This document shows positions 6,725-30,081 of a stretch of 35,926 bases of DNA, in pieces. Under the pieces are notes generated by a model, which saw nothing but the letters and a program-made list of their open reading frames with translations, was not told the origin of the DNA and made no database searches. The stretch is taken from the IMG/VR virus record IMGVR_UViG_3300031801_000005, positions 1-35,926 of that record. One strand, given 5' to 3'. The position numbers and the translations under genes are program-made. The DNA comes from a virus. The first letter of the stretch is position 1, and every line of letters starts with the position of its first letter.

Positions 6725-8368
6725 TTAATATCCAAAATCAGGATCGACTGGTTTGTAAATTGATTCTTTTTTAAGTTCTCTAATTCGTTCAAGTGGGTTT
6801 GATGCGCGTGGTCTACTCATAATGAGATAGCGTAAAGCATCGTATGCATGGTCAGATGCATTCGTGTCTACGTCTTCGGGTTTTGTCTTACTTAGTGGAA
6901 TACTCTGAAGTTCTCGAATCAAGTTAGGACATGTGTTTAATATTTGTAATTGAGGTCTCCCATTATTCCGAACTCTAAGGTATTCGTGTATTTGGATTTT
7001 ACCCTGTATTCTATTTTTGTCTGCTCGTCTGAGCTTGTGGCCAAGTTGTTGAAGTGTCTCACCAACTGTAGGACCAGTTGTTCCTGTTCTTGCCCAAGCA
7101 GCCGTATCTAAGACTCCTTGTACAGAGAAAGGATCTTCTATCTCCATTTCTGTTATTATACGACCTAAATCGAGTCCTGTCAAGTTTTTTCTGTATAGTT
7201 CTCTATAAATTACTAATGTTCCATCACTTCTATCAACTGCTCCCCACAAACAACAACTCTCTGAGGCATACCCATAATCTATCCCTTTGACTCGTTCCCA
7301 TACAGAAGGAATATAAAAAGGTTCAATAATATGAAGATCTGGATCAAACTCAACAAAAGCAGCACCTTCCGCTACATCCCAATTACCATCAAGAAGCTGT
7401 TTTCTCTGAACTGGCGGAAGTGCTTTAAGCATTTCTTCGTATCTACCGTCTAGAGCAAGATAAGGATTATCGTCTAATCTGGCTGGTATAAACTTCCTAG
7501 AAAGTCCGTCTTTACCAATAAAAGAAGTATTAGGATCTACAGGATTTACATACCTTTTTTTAACCCATTGCGCACCTACTCCACCTGGGTTTGCAGTACA
7601 ACGAAGATAAGTTTCTATGCTTGAGTCTGTTGTTCGAAGCCTAGAAGCTAGATAATTCCAGCCGAACTCTGTAGGTAAATGAGTAATTTCATCAAATCCT
7701 ATCCAAGAATATGCTTGTCCTTGATAACGATAAACATCTGCATCCCTCTCAAGGAAGCCAAACTCTATCTTAGCTCCACTAGGAAAGTTCCATAGCTTTT
7801 CGACTTCTCTGAATTTACATCCTGGAAAAGCTTGAGGATAAAGTTCACGAGATTTATCAATTAGTTCTCGTAACTCAGGCATAGATCTTCTTAAAATTAA
7901 TGCTCTATGCGCTTTTTTATGCGCATAACGTAACGGATCAACTAACATCGCGTAAGATTTTCCGCCTCCTGCAGCTCCGCCATAAAGAACATCTCGTTCT
8001 GGTGCGGCTAAGAATTCTGTCTGTGGACCTTCATTAGGATGGAAGACTATGTTGTCTTGGTCTATCTGGTCTTGTACTGTAGGAGGAAGAGATTCTAGTT
8101 CTGAATCGATAACAACTTGATTATCTGTTTTCTTGTCAAGCTTTTTTAATACTTTTTTCTGTGTTTTTAAAGTTGTCTTTTGTGACTTTATTTCATTTCT
8201 TAATTTGGCAATTCTTTTTTCTTTTGTTTTAACAGATCGCCTAGCACTCATCTTTGCTTTAGTTTTTGAGTGATAACTATAATTACTTTTAGATCCTTTA
8301 GGCCTTCCTTTTTTCTTTTTAGGAGCTGAAGTTGCTGAGTTGTTCTTGTCTGTCTTGTCTTGTTCCAT
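6725..8368 (-). CDS. terL: Terminase large subunit
   Basis: A 547-residue DNA-packaging motor. The first 80 residues are Lys-rich and likely flexible. An ATPase follows: Walker A GGAAGGGKS at about 130-138 and Walker B WIGFDE at 222-227 with the catalytic Glu next to Asp. The C-terminal RNase H-like nuclease has Asp364 in Lys-Gly-Ile-Asp-Tyr-Gly, Asp421 in Val-Leu-Asp-Thr, and Asp506/Asp510 in the DHAYDALRY stretch. These are the acidic residues expected of headful or cos cleaving enzymes. Start ATG at 8368 overlaps the upstream gene by 50 bases. The portal follows after five bases. Complete and apparently functional. Confidence 0.97.
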   Translation of the reverse strand: MEQDKTDKNNSATSAPKKKKGRPKGSKSNYSYHSKTKAKMSARRSVKTKEKRIAKLRNEIKSQKTTLKTQKKVLKKLDKKTDNQVVIDSELESLPPTVQDQIDQDNIVFHPNEGPQTEFLAAPERDVLYGGAAGGGKSYAMLVDPLRYAHKKAHRALILRRSMPELRELIDKSRELYPQAFPGCKFREVEKLWNFPSGAKIEFGFLERDADVYRYQGQAYSWIGFDEITHLPTEFGWNYLASRLRTTDSSIETYLRCTANPGGVGAQWVKKRYVNPVDPNTSFIGKDGLSRKFIPARLDDNPYLALDGRYEEMLKALPPVQRKQLLDGNWDVAEGAAFVEFDPDLHIIEPFYIPSVWERVKGIDYGYASESCCLWGAVDRSDGTLVIYRELYRKNLTGLDLGRIITEMEIEDPFSVQGVLDTAAWARTGTTGPTVGETLQQLGHKLRRADKNRIQGKIQIHEYLRVRNNGRPQLQILNTCPNLIRELQSIPLSKTKPEDVDTNASDHAYDALRYLIMSRPRASNPLERIRELKKESIYKPVDPDFGY

Positions 8369-11857: not shown

Positions 11858-11885
11858 AGTATAGACTGGTTAACAGGTTTGTCAA
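11858..11885 (-). promoter_or_regulatory. Sigma70-type promoter for leftward late block
   Basis: On the minus strand TTGACA (11885-11880), a 16-base spacer and TATACT (11863-11858) form a near-consensus host promoter. Its expected start is about 11851, only five or so bases before the terminase small subunit ATG at 11846. The DNA just upstream, 11886-11918, is an A/T tract that could act as UP element for both this and the rightward promoter. Confidence 0.85.
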
Positions 11886-11918
11886 GTCTTTTTTTTAAAA
11901 AAAAAAGGTAAATAATGC

Positions 11919-11947
11919 TTGACAAATGCTACCATCACCTATATACT
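11919..11947 (+). promoter_or_regulatory. Sigma70-type promoter, rightward
   Basis: TTGACA at 11919-11924, a 17-base spacer and TATACT at 11942-11947 give a near-consensus host promoter reading rightward, start about 11954. It is back to back with the leftward promoter; the T8A10 tract between them (part of 11886-11918) may boost both. It reads into the origin region and a 35-codon ORF. The first larger gene starts about 590 bases later. Confidence 0.85.
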
Positions 11948-12166: not shown

Positions 12167-12241
12167 TTATCCACAAGTAATTCACAGGATATCCACAGCT
12201 TGTACACAGGCCAGACATCATTTATCCACAAGTAATTCACA
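12167..12241. repeat. 20-base direct repeat containing a DnaA box
   Basis: TTATCCACAAGTAATTCACA occurs exactly at 12167-12186 and 12222-12241, 55 bases apart start to start, about five helical turns. The copies thus face the same side of the helix, which favours cooperative binding. The second half, TAATTCACA, is itself a loose version of the DnaA box. Confidence 0.85.
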
Positions 12242-12273
12242 ATATTTGACAAGTTGTTAACAGTTTGTCCACA
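12167..12273. other. Putative replication origin: DnaA-box cluster
   Basis: Two exact consensus DnaA boxes TTATCCACA lie at 12167-12175 and 12222-12230. Near-matches are ATATCCACA at 12189-12197, TTGTACACA at 12200-12208 and TTGTCCACA at 12265-12273. All five are in the same orientation within 107 bases. The cluster borders the AT-rich region at 12280-12539 and lies at the point where the leftward and rightward gene blocks diverge. Together these features are typical of DnaA-dependent origins, although no initiator gene is seen in the window. Function as origin is inferred. Confidence 0.65.
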
Positions 12274-14277: not shown

Positions 14278-14571
14278 TCCAGGATTAAGAAATTTAGGAT
14301 ATAGGTTTTTACTTTTTCTGGCCAATGAGGGCCAGGAAATTTTATACATTTTTAAGGATAACTTCCTGGTCAGCTGCAATATATGAATTACTATCATCAT
14401 AGAAAAGCCAACCGCAGGGCTACAAGGGTTTTTCAAATTCCCCTGGCAGGCCTGGCCAAGCTGCATAATAAAGTTTTTCCTGGCTAACTCTTGCTATCCT
14501 TATAGTTTTATGGTAAAATCACATAACATGGTAGAACGGCAACACAGGCAACAACTAAAAGGAGCAACATT
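14278..14571. promoter_or_regulatory. Regulatory gap with repeated CCTGGCC motifs
   Basis: No gene fits here. There is a perfect six-base hairpin CTGGCC-AATGAG-GGCCAG at 14318-14335. CCTGG(C/T)CA followed by (A)GCTGCA recurs at 14365-14378 and 14451-14465, with another CCTGGC at 14442-14447. The promoter at 14479-14519 has its own CCTGGC. The motif returns at the promoters near 15.7 and 17.6 kb. It looks like a protein-binding site, repeated before an early module. Confidence 0.6.
14479..14519 (+). promoter_or_regulatory. Extended -10 promoter with CCTGGC element (A)
   Basis: CCTGGC (14479-14484), six bases, TTGCTA (14491-14496), a 17-base spacer, then TATGG-TAAAAT with the extended -10 TGG and TAAAAT (14514-14519). 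Start is expected near 14526, about 45 bases before the GTG of the next gene. Same architecture as promoter B. Confidence 0.75.
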
Positions 14572-14949
14572 GTGGCATATATAACAGCAGAAGAAACAAG
14601 ACAGATAAGAAACAAATTGAAAGAAGAATTACCCAATCTAAAATTTAGTGTCAGTAAAGGAAGTGGAAATTATTCAGTTAATGTTTCTATCCTTAAAGGT
14701 GACATTGATTTTAGAAATTTAAAACTTTCATCATCACATGGGATTAATATCAATCAATATCATTTAGATCAATATGGAGAGCATGAAGAAGTTCTTGAAA
14801 AGATTATGAACATTATCAAAACTGCTCCAGATAGAAAATGGTTTGATCATAGCAATTCACAAATTGATTATTTTTGTACTGCTTATTATATTGATTTGTC
14901 TGTAGGCAACTGGAAAAAACCTTACATCTACTCAGGAGAATCCACATGA
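14572..14949 (+). CDS. LPD29-like polyvalent-associated protein
   Basis: GTG start with AAAGGAG at 14557-14563, behind promoter A. The 125-residue protein reads Ala-Tyr-Ile-Thr-Ala-Glu-Glu-Thr-Arg-Gln-Ile-Arg at its start, then Lys-Phe-Ser-Val-Ser-Lys and Val-Asn-Val-Ser-Ile-Leu-Lys-Gly-Asp-Ile-Asp-Phe. Its end, Asp-Tyr-Phe-Cys-Thr-Ala-Tyr-Tyr-Ile-Asp-Leu-Ser-Val-Gly, also matches what I recall for LPD29-domain proteins found on mobile elements and phages. A stand-alone copy among small early genes fits; molecular role unknown. Confidence 0.6.
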   Translation: MAYITAEETRQIRNKLKEELPNLKFSVSKGSGNYSVNVSILKGDIDFRNLKLSSSHGININQYHLDQYGEHEEVLEKIMNIIKTAPDRKWFDHSNSQIDYFCTAYYIDLSVGNWKKPYIYSGEST

Positions 14950-15179
14950 GATATAATCTTAAATTCAAAGCAGACGACATAGGTAAATTGGTTCTTAATT
15001 CTATTAGAAGCAATCCTGAAATCAAAAGAGATTTTAAAATAAGAGTCAGAGCTAACGGCAAGAGAAAAATACATGCCATTGCTGATGGTTTACACGCTAG
15101 AGGATATGATCAAGACTTACCGATCCGCTACGCTACAGAATATAGAGTTTATTTAATAAAAAAAGGGGAGCAATCATGA
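14946..15179 (+). CDS. Small basic early protein, unknown
   Basis: Its ATG overlaps the previous stop (ATGA). The 77-residue product is basic (Arg-Val-Arg-Ala-Asn-Gly-Lys-Arg-Lys-Ile-His-Ala) with an Ala-Thr-Glu-Tyr-Arg-Val-Tyr-Leu-Ile-Lys-Lys-Gly end. It runs in the tight early cluster: stop overlaps the next ATG. Not recognised. Confidence 0.6.
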   Translation: MRYNLKFKADDIGKLVLNSIRSNPEIKRDFKIRVRANGKRKIHAIADGLHARGYDQDLPIRYATEYRVYLIKKGEQS

Positions 15180-15448
15180 GTCATTACATGACAGGAGAAC
15201 AAGAGCAACGAATAGTAGATGGAGTAACTGATGTTTGGAAGCTACCAGATCGAGATGATCTATTAGATGATTGTATCAGTTTTGTAGCAGATAACTATTC
15301 CCACAGTTACGAAATTAAAGACTTAGTGATCGAGTTCTTGTCTTTGAGGTGTTATGATAGTATATCTAGTTCAGACTTGGAAGCTATGGCAATGGATGAG
15401 CAGGACAGAGAAGTAATTACAAAATACGAAGACATTCGGGGAGTGTGA
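15176..15448 (+). CDS. Small acidic early protein, unknown
   Basis: Start ATG overlaps the previous TGA, with GGGGAG in the preceding bases. The 90-residue product is acidic, helical, with two Cys (Asp-Cys-Ile-Ser-Phe and Arg-Cys-Tyr-Asp). One base separates it from the next gene. Not recognised. Confidence 0.6.
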   Translation: MSHYMTGEQEQRIVDGVTDVWKLPDRDDLLDDCISFVADNYSHSYEIKDLVIEFLSLRCYDSISSSDLEAMAMDEQDREVITKYEDIRGV

Positions 15449-15449
15449 G

Positions 15450-15674
15450 ATGAGTGAACCAACTAAAAAACTAAAACCATACATTGTTAGAATAAGAACT
15501 CAGGGAATATGGTGGGATGAATACGAAGTACAAGCAGTAAGTGAAGATGAGGCTTGGGATAATTGGAGTGAAGGAGATAAGATAAATGATGATCCAATAG
15601 CTCCTAAAGAATATGAGTGGGAAGTCTACGATGTTACACCTGATTTTTATGATGATGATTACGATGATGAATAA
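15450..15674 (+). CDS. Small acidic protein, DpnD/PcfM-like pattern
   Basis: A 74-residue acidic protein with Tyr-Glu-Val-Gln-Ala-Val-Ser-Glu-Asp-Glu-Ala-Trp near 25-36 and a terminal run of Asp (Tyr-Asp-Asp-Asp-Tyr-Asp-Asp-Glu). The arrangement of a strand, then 'ValxAla' and an acidic DEA-type helix, resembles the small DpnD/PcfM-type fold, as does the protein at 16233-16421. That similarity is weak. Two such proteins in one early block may be paralogues. Confidence 0.55.
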   Translation: MSEPTKKLKPYIVRIRTQGIWWDEYEVQAVSEDEAWDNWSEGDKINDDPIAPKEYEWEVYDVTPDFYDDDYDDE

Positions 15675-15681
15675 TGTCTCA

Positions 15682-15722
15682 CCTGGCCATTCCTTGACTC
15701 CAAAGGTGTCATATGGTAAAAT
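15682..15722 (+). promoter_or_regulatory. Extended -10 promoter with CCTGGCC element (B)
   Basis: CCTGGCC (15682-15688), TTGACT (15694-15699), a 17-base spacer ending TATGG and TAAAAT (15717-15722). The distance CCTGGC to TATGG is 24 bases, identical to promoter A. Start near 15729; next ATG at 15755 with GAGGA between. Confidence 0.8.
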
Positions 15723-15754
15723 GCCCATACCATTAACATAACGAGGACAAACAA

Positions 15755-15958
15755 ATGGACTATAACACCGACAACCTAGTAGATAATGCCTACCGAGATC
15801 GAGAACCTCTCGAACACTCAGGCAACGTAGAAATACAAACAAGGATTAATAAAATTCAAGATGAGGTCGAAGTAGAATTAAGACTTAATCGAAAAGAGAC
15901 AGAAAAGAAACTCTTTAAACTCATTGATGAACTTACTAAAAAGAGGACAAGCAAATGA
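15755..15958 (+). CDS. Small helical protein, unknown
   Basis: The 67-residue product has an acidic, Asn/Asp-rich first third and a long helix with alternating charges (Glu-Val-Glu-Leu-Arg-Leu-Asn-Arg-Lys-Glu-Thr-Glu-Lys-Lys-Leu) at the end. First gene behind promoter B; its stop overlaps the next start by four bases. Not recognised. Confidence 0.6.
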   Translation: MDYNTDNLVDNAYRDREPLEHSGNVEIQTRINKIQDEVEVELRLNRKETEKKLFKLIDELTKKRTSK

Positions 15959-16236
15959 AGACAAATATCCCAATTGAAATAGATGATGATCAAAGATTAA
16001 ATCTTGGACAGAAGTATCACGACACAAAAGCAAAGAAGATGATCTCTAGAAAAGAACTTACTGAAGTTGTGCAATACTTTGTTCTTCAGTTACTAAAGAA
16101 TCCAACTACCACAAAAAGAACCATAGAAAATATATCTTCTAATACAAAAGGAATGAAATACTTTTTCAACGGTACACAGGTTAACGAAGAAACATACAAT
16201 GATGGTATTGAGCAATGGCTCATGGACAGATCATGA
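15955..16236 (+). CDS. Small early protein, unknown
   Basis: The 93-residue product is mixed charged, with a helix around Val-Val-Gln-Tyr-Phe-Val-Leu-Gln-Leu-Leu and the end Gly-Ile-Glu-Gln-Trp-Leu-Met-Asp-Arg-Ser. Coupled to both neighbours by overlap. Not recognised. Confidence 0.6.
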   Translation: MKTNIPIEIDDDQRLNLGQKYHDTKAKKMISRKELTEVVQYFVLQLLKNPTTTKRTIENISSNTKGMKYFFNGTQVNEETYNDGIEQWLMDRS

Positions 16237-16421
16237 GTATGAAAGAGTTTAGAGTTGTAAGATCAACCAACCTATCAGAAGAATGTTATGTCATGGCTGA
16301 AACTGCTGACGAAGCTGAAGAACTTGCAATAGAGGTGGAGCAGGATTGGGAACATCTATGGGATCGTGGAGATATCGTAGCTGAAGAGTGTGACTACTTA
16401 GCTAAAGAGGTGATAGTATGA
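16233..16421 (+). CDS. Small acidic protein, DpnD/PcfM-like pattern
   Basis: The start is taken as ATG at 16233, overlapping the previous stop as ATGA; an earlier ATG at 16215 would lie deep in the previous gene. The 62-residue product has Phe-Arg-Val-Val-Arg, then Cys-Tyr-Val-Met-Ala-Glu-Thr-Ala-Asp-Glu-Ala-Glu-Glu-Leu-Ala, an arrangement like that of the protein at 15450-15674. Immediately followed by the methyltransferase. Confidence 0.55.
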   Translation: MSMKEFRVVRSTNLSEECYVMAETADEAEELAIEVEQDWEHLWDRGDIVAEECDYLAKEVIV

Positions 16422-17659
16422 ATGTCTTGAGCTTATTTGATGGCATGAGTTGTGGGCAACAAGCACTAGATCGTTTAGGTGTGAAGGTAGACAACTACTA
16501 CGCATCTGAGATAGACAAGTATGCTATAAAGATCACACAAAAGAACTACCCTGATACGATTCAGTTAGGTGATGTTCGGGATGTTAAAGGTTCTGATCTT
16601 CCAGCCATAGATTTAATACTCTGTGGTTCACCTTGTCAAGGGTTTTCTTTTGCGGGAAACCAGTTGGCTTTTGATGATCCTAGATCAGCTTTATTTTTTG
16701 AGTTCATACGAATACTAAAAGAATGCAAACCTAAATATTTTCTGTTAGAGAATGTTCGGATGAAGCAAGAGTATATTGATGTCATTACAGATGAAGTATC
16801 TTTTTTATATCCAACAGAAGGTTCTTATGTACAAGCTACCTTCTTTGATTTTGCGCATAGAGGGATGAAACAAAAAAGAAAGAAGATTGTTCCTGTGCTG
16901 ATAAATTCTAGTTTAGTAAGCGCACAGAATCGTCAACGTTTGTATTGGACTAACATTCCAAACGTGACACAACCAGAAGATAGAGGAATAGCTTTGAGGG
17001 ATGTGTTGGAAGATACTGTTGCGGAACATTACCAAGCAGGAGAGGAGTTACAACAGAACTATGCAGGTGGTAACTTCTTAAACCCTAGCTACAAGAGTCA
17101 AGCCAACACCATCCACAACGTAGAGGGTAAGTCTGGAACAATTTGTGCAGGCACACATGGTTACGCTAACGGATATGTAAAGACACCTAAACAAGTTGGA
17201 ACAGCGATAGACATCAACGGACACGATATCCTCAAGAGAGTTTACTCACCAGATGGTAAGTCACCTACTCTCAACACTATGGGTGGCGGTAATAGACAAC
17301 CCAAAGTTGTAACAGGTGCGTGGCGCGGAAGATACAGAGTCGATGGAGTCAGACAGGATCACAAAGGTTCTGTTGCAGGTAGAACTAAGCAGATGTTAGA
17401 GCTTCGTAAAGATGATAAGACTAATGCGCTAACTACAGTCCAGAAGGACAATGTGGTAGTAGAACCAGAGAAGATGAATTGGCGCAAGCTATCGGTTGTA
17501 GAATGTGAGCGTTTGCAAACAGTCGATGACGACTACACCGATGGAGTATCTAACACACAACGCTACAAAATGTTAGGGAATGGTATGACGGTGGAAGTGA
17601 TCGCACATATATTAAGCAATGTTTCACCTGGCCAGCTACAGAAAAAGGTGGATTTCTAA
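16418..17659 (+). CDS. DNA cytosine-5 methyltransferase
   Basis: A 413-residue enzyme that would transfer a methyl group from SAM to C5 of cytosine. Motif I is FDGMSCG at about 7-13; motif IV is Pro-Cys-Gln at 72-74 with catalytic Cys73; motif VI Glu-Asn-Val at 111-113; motif VIII Gln-Asn-Arg-Gln-Arg at 170-174. A target-recognition region spans roughly 190-350, and motifs IX-X include Gly-Asn-Gly-Met-Thr-Val near the end. All are intact, so an active enzyme is expected. No cognate restriction enzyme is nearby, so it may protect phage DNA or alter promoter sites. The target sequence cannot be read from the protein. Downstream promoter C lies within its 3' end. Confidence 0.95.
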   Translation: MNVLSLFDGMSCGQQALDRLGVKVDNYYASEIDKYAIKITQKNYPDTIQLGDVRDVKGSDLPAIDLILCGSPCQGFSFAGNQLAFDDPRSALFFEFIRILKECKPKYFLLENVRMKQEYIDVITDEVSFLYPTEGSYVQATFFDFAHRGMKQKRKKIVPVLINSSLVSAQNRQRLYWTNIPNVTQPEDRGIALRDVLEDTVAEHYQAGEELQQNYAGGNFLNPSYKSQANTIHNVEGKSGTICAGTHGYANGYVKTPKQVGTAIDINGHDILKRVYSPDGKSPTLNTMGGGNRQPKVVTGAWRGRYRVDGVRQDHKGSVAGRTKQMLELRKDDKTNALTTVQKDNVVVEPEKMNWRKLSVVECERLQTVDDDYTDGVSNTQRYKMLGNGMTVEVIAHILSNVSPGQLQKKVDF

Positions 17660-17677
17660 CATGTTTTATGGTACAAT
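17627..17677 (+). promoter_or_regulatory. Extended -10 promoter with CCTGGCC element (C)
   Basis: CCTGGCCAGCTACA begins at 17627 inside the methyltransferase gene; TATGG and TACAAT (17672-17677) follow. The spacing CCTGGC to TATGG is 34 bases, ten more than in A and B, one helical turn. The -35 (TGGATT) is weak. Start about 17684, before the ssDNA-binding protein gene at 17733. Confidence 0.6.
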
Positions 17678-26984: not shown

Positions 26985-27664
26985 AAATATTTATTGGTTA
27001 CGAAGAAGAATATCCTGAAGCATATGAAGTATGTAAGGCTTCTATCGAAAGATTTAATAAAACACATCAGATTGTGCCTTTAATAAAAAAGAATCTAATT
27101 AAAGAGGGATTATACGATAGACCAGTTGCAGGCGAGAACACAGACTTTGCTTTTACTAGATTCCTGGTTCCTTATCTTTGTGATTACAAAGGCTATGCTT
27201 TATTTTGTGATGGAGATTTTTTGTGGAGAAGTGATCCAGAAGAACTTAGATCTTTTGAAGATGATGAGTACGCTATCCATGTTGTTAAACATCCGCAACT
27301 AATAACATCTAAACATATGAAAATGAATACACATGTGAATAGACCTTATGAAAAAAAATATTGGTCTAGTTTAATGTATATGGATTGCACCGAGTCAGAA
27401 GTATTGACTGTTGACTATGTTAATACTGCAAAAGCTTCTGATTTACATAGTTTTAAATGGTTGCCTGAAGATATAGTAATAGGAGAACTACCTGTTACTT
27501 ATAATATGCTAGTGGGATATTATCATCTACCTGATCCAAAAGCAGTACATTTTACAGACGGAGGCCCATGGTTAGAAGGGTATGAGAATGTTGAGTATGC
27601 TGGCGAGTGGAATCAAGTTAACAGGCAAAAACCAATAAAAAATTTTGGAGGCGGAGTATTCTAA
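26981..27664 (+). CDS. GT8-like glycosyltransferase
   Basis: A 227-residue GT-A type transferase. The divalent-metal motif is Cys-Asp77-Gly-Asp79-Phe after hydrophobic Tyr-Ala-Leu-Phe, and His190 (Val-His-Phe-Thr-Asp-Gly-Gly-Pro-Trp) is where GT8 enzymes carry their second metal ligand. It would use a nucleotide sugar to modify a glycan, protein or DNA-linked group; the acceptor cannot be read. First gene of a five-gene cassette. Starts inside the previous stop. Confidence 0.75.
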   Translation: MKIFIGYEEEYPEAYEVCKASIERFNKTHQIVPLIKKNLIKEGLYDRPVAGENTDFAFTRFLVPYLCDYKGYALFCDGDFLWRSDPEELRSFEDDEYAIHVVKHPQLITSKHMKMNTHVNRPYEKKYWSSLMYMDCTESEVLTVDYVNTAKASDLHSFKWLPEDIVIGELPVTYNMLVGYYHLPDPKAVHFTDGGPWLEGYENVEYAGEWNQVNRQKPIKNFGGGVF

Positions 27665-27665
27665 C

Positions 27666-28082
27666 ATGAAAGTTAAGTGGGATAGGTTTTATTATAAACC
27701 CTTACCTGATTGTCTTACTATAAAAGAAAGTACAATAAAGGGAGCAGGACTAGGTATGTTTGCTACTAAAGATATAGAAAGAAAGTATGACTTTGGTACT
27801 TCACATATAAAAGTACCGCCTATTGTAGGCTACATAAGAACTCCTATAGGTGGGTTTGTAAATCATTCAAAAAAATCAAATACTATTATCATACAACTTT
27901 CCGATTGGGATGATTATAAAATTTTTAATTTAATCGCAACAGGTAACATACATAAAGGGCAAGAACTATTTCTTAATTATGATGATGGTGATAGCAGAGA
28001 GATGTCTAAGCTATATGTAAATGGTGATAAGGAAAAAGAATCTAGGGAATATGATGTTCAAGTGGCAATAGATGCAGACTAA
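27666..28082 (+). CDS. SET-domain lysine methyltransferase-like protein
   Basis: The start is ATG at 27666 with GGCGGAG just before; an earlier in-frame start lies inside the GT8 gene. The 138-residue protein keeps SET features: Lys-Gly-Ala-Gly-Leu-Gly-Met-Phe-Ala (about 25-33, SAM binding), Asn-His-Ser at 66-68 and Glu-Leu-Phe-Leu-Asn-Tyr-Asp-Asp (100-107) with the catalytic Tyr. SET enzymes methylate Lys in proteins, so a target in the virion or host is expected. Compact phage version; substrate unknown. Confidence 0.8.
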   Translation: MKVKWDRFYYKPLPDCLTIKESTIKGAGLGMFATKDIERKYDFGTSHIKVPPIVGYIRTPIGGFVNHSKKSNTIIIQLSDWDDYKIFNLIATGNIHKGQELFLNYDDGDSREMSKLYVNGDKEKESREYDVQVAIDAD

Positions 28083-28950
28083 TAATAAAGACAGCTTTCT
28101 TGAGCATAGAAAAAACCAAGAGTCTAAACATTTTAGTGGTAAAGAAACTTTATCGCCATTAGATTCAATACTTACTGTAGAAATAAACACTACAGAACTT
28201 TGTAATCGAACCTGTTTCTTCTGTCCTAGACACGATCCAAAAGTATTTCCTAATCGTAATCTACATATGTCACCTAAAGGTGCAAGAACTATAGCCAAAG
28301 AATTAAATCGTAATGGATATAAAGGAAAGATTTCTTTTAGTGGTTTTGGTGAGAACTTTCTTAATCCATTATTTCATAGGATTATCTTTCATTTTAATCT
28401 ATACCTTCCTGATGCTACACTTGAATGTAATACTAATGGTGATAGACTTACATCAGAATATGCTAGATTATTATTTGATAGTGGACTAGACTTACTGTAC
28501 ATTAATTTATATGATGGCATGGAACAGATAGAACATTTTGATTCTATTATGAGTTATTTTCCAAAAGAAAAATATAAATACAGAGCGCACTACAACGAAG
28601 AAGACTACGGACTATTCTTAAATAATCGTAGTGGCACTATAGACTGGCTGGGTATTGATGATAGTAATGTAGAAGAGTTGAAGGGAAAGCCTTGTTTCTA
28701 TCCTTTCTATAAAATGTTTGTAGATTGGAATGGTGATGTGTTGTTTTGTTCAAACGATTGGGGAAGAGAACATGTCATAGGTAACTTAATGCAACAGACA
28801 TTACATGAGGTATGGTTCAGTAAGCCTATGAAAAAGATACGCGCTAGACTAGCAAAAGGAGATAGAAGTAAATCACCTTGCAACAAGTGTAGTGTTAATG
28901 GACAATTATTCGGAGAGCAGTCATTCAATCTGATACAAAATATAAAGTAA
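28072..28950 (+). CDS. Radical SAM/SPASM protein
   Basis: A 292-residue enzyme. Cys44, Cys48 and Cys51 form the CxxxCxxC motif (Glu-Leu-Cys-Asn-Arg-Thr-Cys-Phe-Phe-Cys) that binds the SAM-cleaving 4Fe-4S cluster. The C-terminal half has Cys208, Cys226, Cys270 and Cys273, a SPASM-type set for auxiliary Fe-S. Such proteins often modify peptides or sugar-linked groups. Here it lies between a SET protein and an SDR-like protein. It overlaps the SET gene by 11 bases. The encoded IscA may feed it. Confidence 0.92.
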   Translation: MQTNNKDSFLEHRKNQESKHFSGKETLSPLDSILTVEINTTELCNRTCFFCPRHDPKVFPNRNLHMSPKGARTIAKELNRNGYKGKISFSGFGENFLNPLFHRIIFHFNLYLPDATLECNTNGDRLTSEYARLLFDSGLDLLYINLYDGMEQIEHFDSIMSYFPKEKYKYRAHYNEEDYGLFLNNRSGTIDWLGIDDSNVEELKGKPCFYPFYKMFVDWNGDVLFCSNDWGREHVIGNLMQQTLHEVWFSKPMKKIRARLAKGDRSKSPCNKCSVNGQLFGEQSFNLIQNIK

Positions 28951-29423
28951 TAATAACAGGCACGTATGGATTAGCCAAGTATATTGGTGATTATTATGGT
29001 GCAACGAATTTAGAATCTGCTGATAATGCAGACATATTTATAAACTGTGAGCATATCGGCTTTCAACAAGTAAGATTATTTGACAGGTTCTTTAACTTAT
29101 GGAAAGACGATAAAGATAAATATATAATAAATATATCTTCAAGAGCTGCACAACCTAATATATCTAAAGGCTTTTTGTATGCATCAGAAAAGGCCGCATT
29201 GAATCATTACACAAACAATACAGTATATAATTCAGATAAGCTTTGTCGTGTTACTACATTAAATCTAGGTTTGATGGCACATAAAACATTGCCTAGTGTG
29301 TCTTATCAGGATGTTTTAGATACTATTAACTGGCTAATAGAATCTTCTTTGGAAATACCTGACATTACTGTTCAACACAGAGCCAACTATCGAAAGGTGC
29401 AGGATGATAAATCCAATTTATAA
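28923..29423 (+). CDS. Short SDR-like oxidoreductase, non-ATG start
   Basis: The frame reads Val-Ile-Ile-Thr-Gly-Thr-Tyr-Gly-Leu-Ala (a TGxxxGxA nucleotide site), an Asn-Cys-Glu-His segment, then Ile-Ser-Ser-Arg and Tyr-Ala-Ser-Glu-Lys, the Tyr-x3-Lys of SDR catalysis. It is only 166 residues, short of the usual 230-250. No ATG, GTG or TTG exists before the nucleotide motif; ATT at 28923 has GGAG at 28912-28915 and is the best start. A later TTG at 29175 would remove the cofactor site. A -1 shift from the radical SAM frame is an alternative. The product probably pairs with the neighbouring sugar genes. Confidence 0.7.
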   Translation: MQSDTKYKVIITGTYGLAKYIGDYYGATNLESADNADIFINCEHIGFQQVRLFDRFFNLWKDDKDKYIINISSRAAQPNISKGFLYASEKAALNHYTNNTVYNSDKLCRVTTLNLGLMAHKTLPSVSYQDVLDTINWLIESSLEIPDITVQHRANYRKVQDDKSNL

Positions 29424-30081
29424 AGAAATAAGCGGAAAGAATATTATATTGGTGGGTAACTCCGTTGAAATTCTAGAATATGATTACGGAGATATTATTG
29501 AAACTTACGATGTTGTTGTAAGGTTTGGAAGAGGAGTACCTACACCAGAGCTGGTGAAGTCGATTGGAAAACGAACAGACATTTGGATAACAGGCTTGTT
29601 ACGTCAGAAATATGCAAGGTTTTTTCCTAAAGCTTTTAAATTATTCAATCGTAATAGAATATATATAGATAAAGAGCTACCAAAAGATAGACTACCTGAT
29701 TTTGAATATATGGAAATGTTTTCAGACAAGGAACTGCTTGAAATGTACAAGGAATTTGGCTATGTTGATGGTGACAAGTATGAAAAACGACCATCAGCAG
29801 GCTTTCTAGCTCTTCTTTATTTTACTAAGGTAGCTAATGATTGGAAAAGTTTAACTCTTATAGGCTTTGATTTCTTTGCTAAGACGTATGACTATAAGAT
29901 AGGCGGTGCAAAACCTACGAGTTGGCATAAGCCAAAGGCTTTAATTAATCAACATCCTCACAATCCCTCTATAGAAAGAGATCATGCTTTAAAGTTAGAA
30001 AGTGATAGTATTATTAAGTGGATAAAGCTTTCAGATTTCACAACGGAAGATATATATTCATTTCAACATTCTTCTCGTTAA
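29404..30081 (+). CDS. GT29-like (sialyltransferase-type) glycosyltransferase
   Basis: A 225-residue protein with GT29 sialylmotif features. An L-type segment lies at about 12-42 (Ile-Leu-Val-Gly-Asn-Ser, then Tyr-Asp-Val-Val-Val-Arg-Phe-Gly), an S-type at about 129-155 (Arg-Pro-Ser-Ala-Gly-Phe-Leu-Ala-Leu, then Leu-Ile-Gly-Phe-Asp), a His184-Pro-His186 and a VS-like His194-x4-Glu199. GT29 transfers CMP-sialic acid-type sugars, but marine viral versions may use other donors. ATG 29404 overlaps the SDR stop. It ends exactly where the leftward block starts. Confidence 0.8.
   Translation: MINPIYKEISGKNIILVGNSVEILEYDYGDIIETYDVVVRFGRGVPTPELVKSIGKRTDIWITGLLRQKYARFFPKAFKLFNRNRIYIDKELPKDRLPDFEYMEMFSDKELLEMYKEFGYVDGDKYEKRPSAGFLALLYFTKVANDWKSLTLIGFDFFAKTYDYKIGGAKPTSWHKPKALINQHPHNPSIERDHALKLESDSIIKWIKLSDFTTEDIYSFQHSSR

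Follow-up and report, generated by a model that had tools for sequence, protein, structure and literature searches.

Three plus-strand promoters of an uncultured marine podovirus, here called P1, P2 and P3, share the word CCTGGC at a fixed helical phase relative to an extended -10 element, and both the word and its phase recur in two related genomes. Judged from sequence comparison, this box, CCTGGC(CA), is a putative operator of one sequence-specific regulator acting at P1-P3, most likely a delayed-early activator, a reading to which we assign a probability of roughly 45%. The regulator, encoded by the phage or derived from the host, would serve promoters that are read by the host RNA polymerase and would place all three operons under common control. 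It would bind on one face of the DNA, either directly upstream of the -35 element (predicted positions -47 to -42) or one turn further away (-57 to -52), where it would most likely touch RNA polymerase as an activator and bring about coordinated delayed-early expression of the genes behind P1-P3.

The window, by which we mean the whole stretch of DNA analysed, is a virus contig of 35.9 kb that encodes a terminase, a T7-type portal, a primase/helicase, a family A polymerase, a gp2.5-like ssDNA-binding protein, a ribonucleotide reductase and endonuclease I, its minus strand carrying the genes for virion and packaging and its plus strand those for replication. At 27645-30081, an almost uninterrupted series of genes matches SET-domain and radical SAM/SPASM proteins and, weakly, sialyltransferases, a combination that is unusual in a podovirus of small size. 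Among cultured phages, the window is closest to HTVC103P, HTVC104P and HTVC115P, which infect Pelagibacter (identity to HTVC103P-type pelagiphages 64–65% for the terminase, 44–45% for the primase and 48–49% for the polymerase). A survey that covers genomes of the HTVC103P type together with more distant ones from metagenomes, whose hosts are unknown, makes no mention of promoters (PMC8528129); the window's contig would fit among the metagenome genomes. In the literature, we found no account of gene timing in HTVC103P-like marine phages. No T7-type RNA polymerase gene was recognised in the window, though the search control also gave no signal, and an Rfam search of the window and its relatives yielded no match. 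The two box-carrying relatives are G001 (L089), with a methyltransferase 93% and a polymerase 96% identical to those of the window, and G002 (L090/L085), with a polymerase 74% identical.

Table 1. Promoters, additional box copies and terminator in the window
Feature	Position	Strand	Description
Divergent consensus promoters	11858..11947	.	TTGACA-16-TATACT (minus), TTGACA-17-TATACT (plus); no CCTGGC box
Intrinsic terminator hairpin	14314..14339	+	between first operon and P1; also in L089
Extra copy CCTGGTCAGCTGCA	14365..14378	+	upstream of P1; CCTGGTCA at the equivalent place in L089
Extra copies	14442..14465	+	bare CCTGGC at 14442 and CCTGGCCA-A-GCTGCA at 14451; upstream of P1
P1	14479..14519	+	CCTGGC-N6-TTGCTA-N17-TAAAAT; extended -10 TATGGTAAAAT; CCTGGC-to-TATGG gap 24 bases
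P2	15682..15722	+	CCTGGC-N6-TTGACT-N17-TAAAAT; box CCTGGCCA, TATGGTAAAAT; gap to TATGG 24 bases
P3	17627..17677	+	box CCTGGCCA, 34 bases, then TATGGTACAAT; weak -35 TGGATT

The three composites were re-read in the window at the same positions, with the sequence and the gaps of 24, 24 and 34 bases that the original prediction had given (Table 1). P1 stands just 3' of the terminator that closes the first operon and precedes an operon of small genes starting at 14572, P2 precedes small genes and a C5 DNA methyltransferase gene, and P3, whose box is embedded in the 3'-terminal part of the methyltransferase gene, precedes the genes for the ssDNA-binding protein, primase and polymerase. The box of P1 reads CCTGGCTA, as opposed to CCTGGCCA at P2 and P3. 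The -35 element is good at P2, moderate at P1 and weak at P3, where the hexamer at 17-base spacing matches only three of six positions, and also weak in the promoters of G002. Sorted by distance between box and TATGG, the 24-base class has TTGCTA and TTGACT and the 34/35-base class TGGATT, TATATA and TGTTAT, a loose trend in few cases that looks as if the latter class were helped from upstream. P2 would be strong without help (TTGACT, 17 bases, extended TAAAAT), which counts against activation.

Chance is a poor explanation for this arrangement. The whole window contains three TATGGTANAAT sites; all are on the plus strand, and each has CCTGGC upstream. The combination CCTGGC-N14..44-TATGGTA was found three times, compared to a shuffle mean of 0.01, and none of 100 shuffled sequences reached three. 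CCTGGC alone is mildly enriched (10 found, 5.5 expected), with five of the seven plus-strand copies falling within the three promoter regions; all three copies of CCTGGCCA (0.36 expected) are on the plus strand in these regions. Spacing was analysed with five observations, namely P1-P3 of the window and P1 and P3 of G002, which share ancestry and are not fully independent. Their distances to TATGG of 24, 24, 34, 34 and 35 bases give a phase coherence of 0.975 at 10.5 bp, a value that random placements between 20 and 45 attain in 0.03% of cases (simulated p ~3e-4), whereas about 1% of random placements do as well as the window promoters alone. The box thus has the fixed helical phase of activator-dependent (class I/II) sigma-70 promoters. 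The original prediction of exactly one helical turn more at P3 needs to be relaxed, since the difference between 34 and 24 bases corresponds to about 0.95 turn and P3 of G002 has 35 bases.

The cluster of further CCTGGYCA-GCTGCA copies proposed for 14365-14465 does exist, with the qualification that the copy at 14451 carries an inserted A and the one at 14442 is a bare CCTGGC. These two copies, partly kept in L089, lie 52 and 61 bases from TATGG, out of phase with the 24-base box of P1, and this counts against an activator that works from one face of the DNA. The terminator hairpin includes an inverted CCTGGCC at 14330-14336, and its stem holds inverted CTGGCC/GGCCAG. In the same leader, TACTATCATCAT (14389-14400) is kept upstream of P1 in three genomes; it is found near 1035 in L089, at 7826-7837 and near 10788 in L090 and at 1591-1602 in L003, and in both L090 and L003 it recurs immediately ahead of the ssDNA-binding gene.

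The original prediction would have failed if CCTGGC were placed at random relative to the -10 sites of relatives, and in both box-carrying relatives the placement is not random. G001 has the same gaps of 24, 24 and 34 bases; its P1 box is the consensus CCTGGCCA, and its P2 keeps the gap of 24 with TCTGGTAAAAT, with TCTGG in place of TATGG. G002 has CCTGGG at 34 bases in P1 and CCTGGCCA at 35 bases in P3, and P2 was not seen there. At P3, the box falls into the last methyltransferase codons, which read ...SNVSPGQ... in the window and ...HILNILAK... in L090, so that the same word encodes SPGQ in one and ILAK in the other. Because the word is read in different frames at nearly the same distance from the -10 element, conservation of the protein does not explain it, and the DNA word at P3 itself seems to be under selection. 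The picture does not extend to all relatives. L003 retains the P3 promoter and the methyltransferase gene and has only TCTGGCC about 48 bases upstream, and L205 retains the P3 promoter but differs in the segment upstream of it and lacks the box; both count against the proposed activator. CCTGACC at 34 bases in L100 and L208 was left uncounted because it encodes NPDR in the frame of the window. P3 transcripts of relatives would start at or beside ATGTATTTAAAATTGAAAA (L090 10640-10680, L003 1458-1490, L100 1765-1800), a conserved possible leaderless micro-ORF (MYLKLK...) that is missing in the window.

More distant phages are without the box altogether. Across the wider family, the ssDNA-binding gene is mostly preceded by a promoter that lacks the box and shows a good TTGACA or TTGCAA, and the early regions of HTVC103P-type phages, although these are the closest cultured relatives, contain essentially no CCTGG (none in 12 kb of HTVC115P, two in 14.5 kb of HTVC103P). 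A scan of viral contigs for CCTGGCCA-N12..42-TATGGTANAAT yielded 29 stretches. Among them, L191, L198 and L200 from an unrelated phage have a gene end coding for YPGQ, and their 24-base spacing was taken as coincidence; an unrelated phage group has a conserved hairpin that terminates in CCTGGCCA, with spacings of 21, 29, 38 and 39; the remaining matches outside the window's clade are singletons. In unrelated phages (L175, L176, L177, L178, L180 and L183), a TATGGTATAAT promoter is preceded by a conserved 14-bp hairpin, GGYYRGGNCTC...CGCGGAGNCCTGGCC, whose loop (ACTCCTTATCAC) is invariant, and Rfam returned no match for the hairpin in L178, L183 and L195. On these comparisons, the motif is confined to the small clade of the window. 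Effectively, only three distinct genomes carry the box, which also counts against the proposed regulator.

Class I/II activation by CRP and the sites of P2 Ogr, Mu C and lambda CII are well-established systems with which the box can be compared. As in CRP-type activation of sigma-70 promoters, the site lies upstream of or abuts the -35 element at distances differing by whole turns. However, the CRP site is a 22-bp palindrome and not a single one-directional word of eight bases, the box is nearer to the -35 element than CRP at -61.5, and CRP is a known activator whereas the regulator here is only putative. Similar to the sites of Ogr (at about -55), Mu C and CII, the box is a phage-specific word fixed beside the -35 element of several promoters for host RNA polymerase, but none of these motifs equals CCTGGCCA, and the promoters of the window, in contrast to theirs, precede replication genes. 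No gene resembling those for Ogr, C or CII was recognised in the window.

The suggestion that small early proteins bind the box found no support, as no recognised DNA-binding family was found among the early gene products of the window, and this too counts against the best explanation. The product of orf15955-16236 has a ribbon-helix-helix look by eye but gained no support as the binding protein: sequence searches of Pfam, NCBIfam and PDB yielded nothing that fitted, AlphaFold produced a poor model (pLDDT 52), and Foldseek gave no match. A link of orf14946 to the box was discarded as well, since its homologues also occur in L205-L211, where the CCTGG copies are coding and do not stand before promoters.

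A regulator beside the -35 element agrees with the fixed phase and its retention in relatives through frame change and re-positioning, and would more likely activate than repress. As a repressor operator, the box would bind a protein that shuts off P1-P3 later or autoregulates one operon, and the phase would be incidental or come from polymerase contact. We consider this somewhat unlikely. The quality of P2 favours repression, P1 and P2 look strong enough unaided, and several copies without common phase at P1 resemble multi-operator repression. Activation is favoured by the phase and position of the box: purely steric repression does not need a one-turn phase, which is nevertheless kept in G002, and at -57 to -52 the box lies beyond the usual core of the polymerase footprint.

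Less probable still, the shared word could have arisen as a by-product when promoter segments were copied within or between phages. TCACCTGGCCA, common to P2 and P3, is longer than the box, as expected after copying, and in L205 and L209 a promoter segment, ACTATCATTCTTAGCTGATTTATGCTA, is present as copies in two locations. Yet the sequence between box and -10 element differs in all three promoters while both ends match, the box is kept in another frame in G002 and the spacing classes are one turn apart; a box without regulatory role is therefore improbable. CCTGG and GGCC are classical targets of C5-methyltransferases, and the phage enzyme encoded between P2 and P3, with a HhaI/HaeIII-like catalytic part, might mark or bind the boxes as methylation-sensitive control sites. 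The P3 box follows its gene in the window, G001 and G002, and L205 lacks both. We regard this as very unlikely, given that GGCC is not constant (P1 has CCTGGCTA, P1 of G002 CCTGGG), that CCWGG is common elsewhere (30 sites in the window) and that in L003 the gene is not accompanied by a phased box. Sigma-54 promoters are hardly credible: the likeness of TGGC-N-TTGC to a -24/-12 element is limited to P1, where the spacing (N6) is one base short of the strict TGGC-N7-TTGC, whereas P2 has TTGA and P3 has no such element, and all three promoters have an extended sigma-70 -10 element. An RNA hairpin, CACCT...AGGTG, at P2 and P3 was rejected because it is not kept in P2 of L089 or P3 of G002.

The timing is less secure than originally claimed. 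That P1-P3 are the early promoters is unsupported, because the consensus divergent pair at 11.86/11.94 kb, which has no box and sits between the minus-strand virion/packaging genes and the plus-strand replication genes, likely provides better candidates for immediate-early transcription. This pair flanks a T-run/A-run palindrome and is kept in L090 (3702-3808). Nearby, an AT-rich intergenic stretch (12167-12273) contains, always in plus-strand orientation, two exact copies of the DnaA-box consensus TTATCCACA together with ATATCCACA and TTGTCCACA, and is a possible replication origin; a DnaA-box origin is unexpected in a T7-like phage.

On the whole, the original interpretation of the box is plausible within a small clade, and the promoter architecture is otherwise ordinary, a further example of a type of promoter control well known from phages. 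The more specific proposal, an uncharacterised phage-encoded activator from no recognisable DNA-binding family that times replication genes via a one-directional CCTGGCCA tolerated at one-turn steps, appears unlikely. If it were true, replication-gene expression in this marine phage clade would be timed through CCTGGCCA. A phased operator common to three operons would offer a concrete handle for finding the regulator of HTVC103P-like phages.
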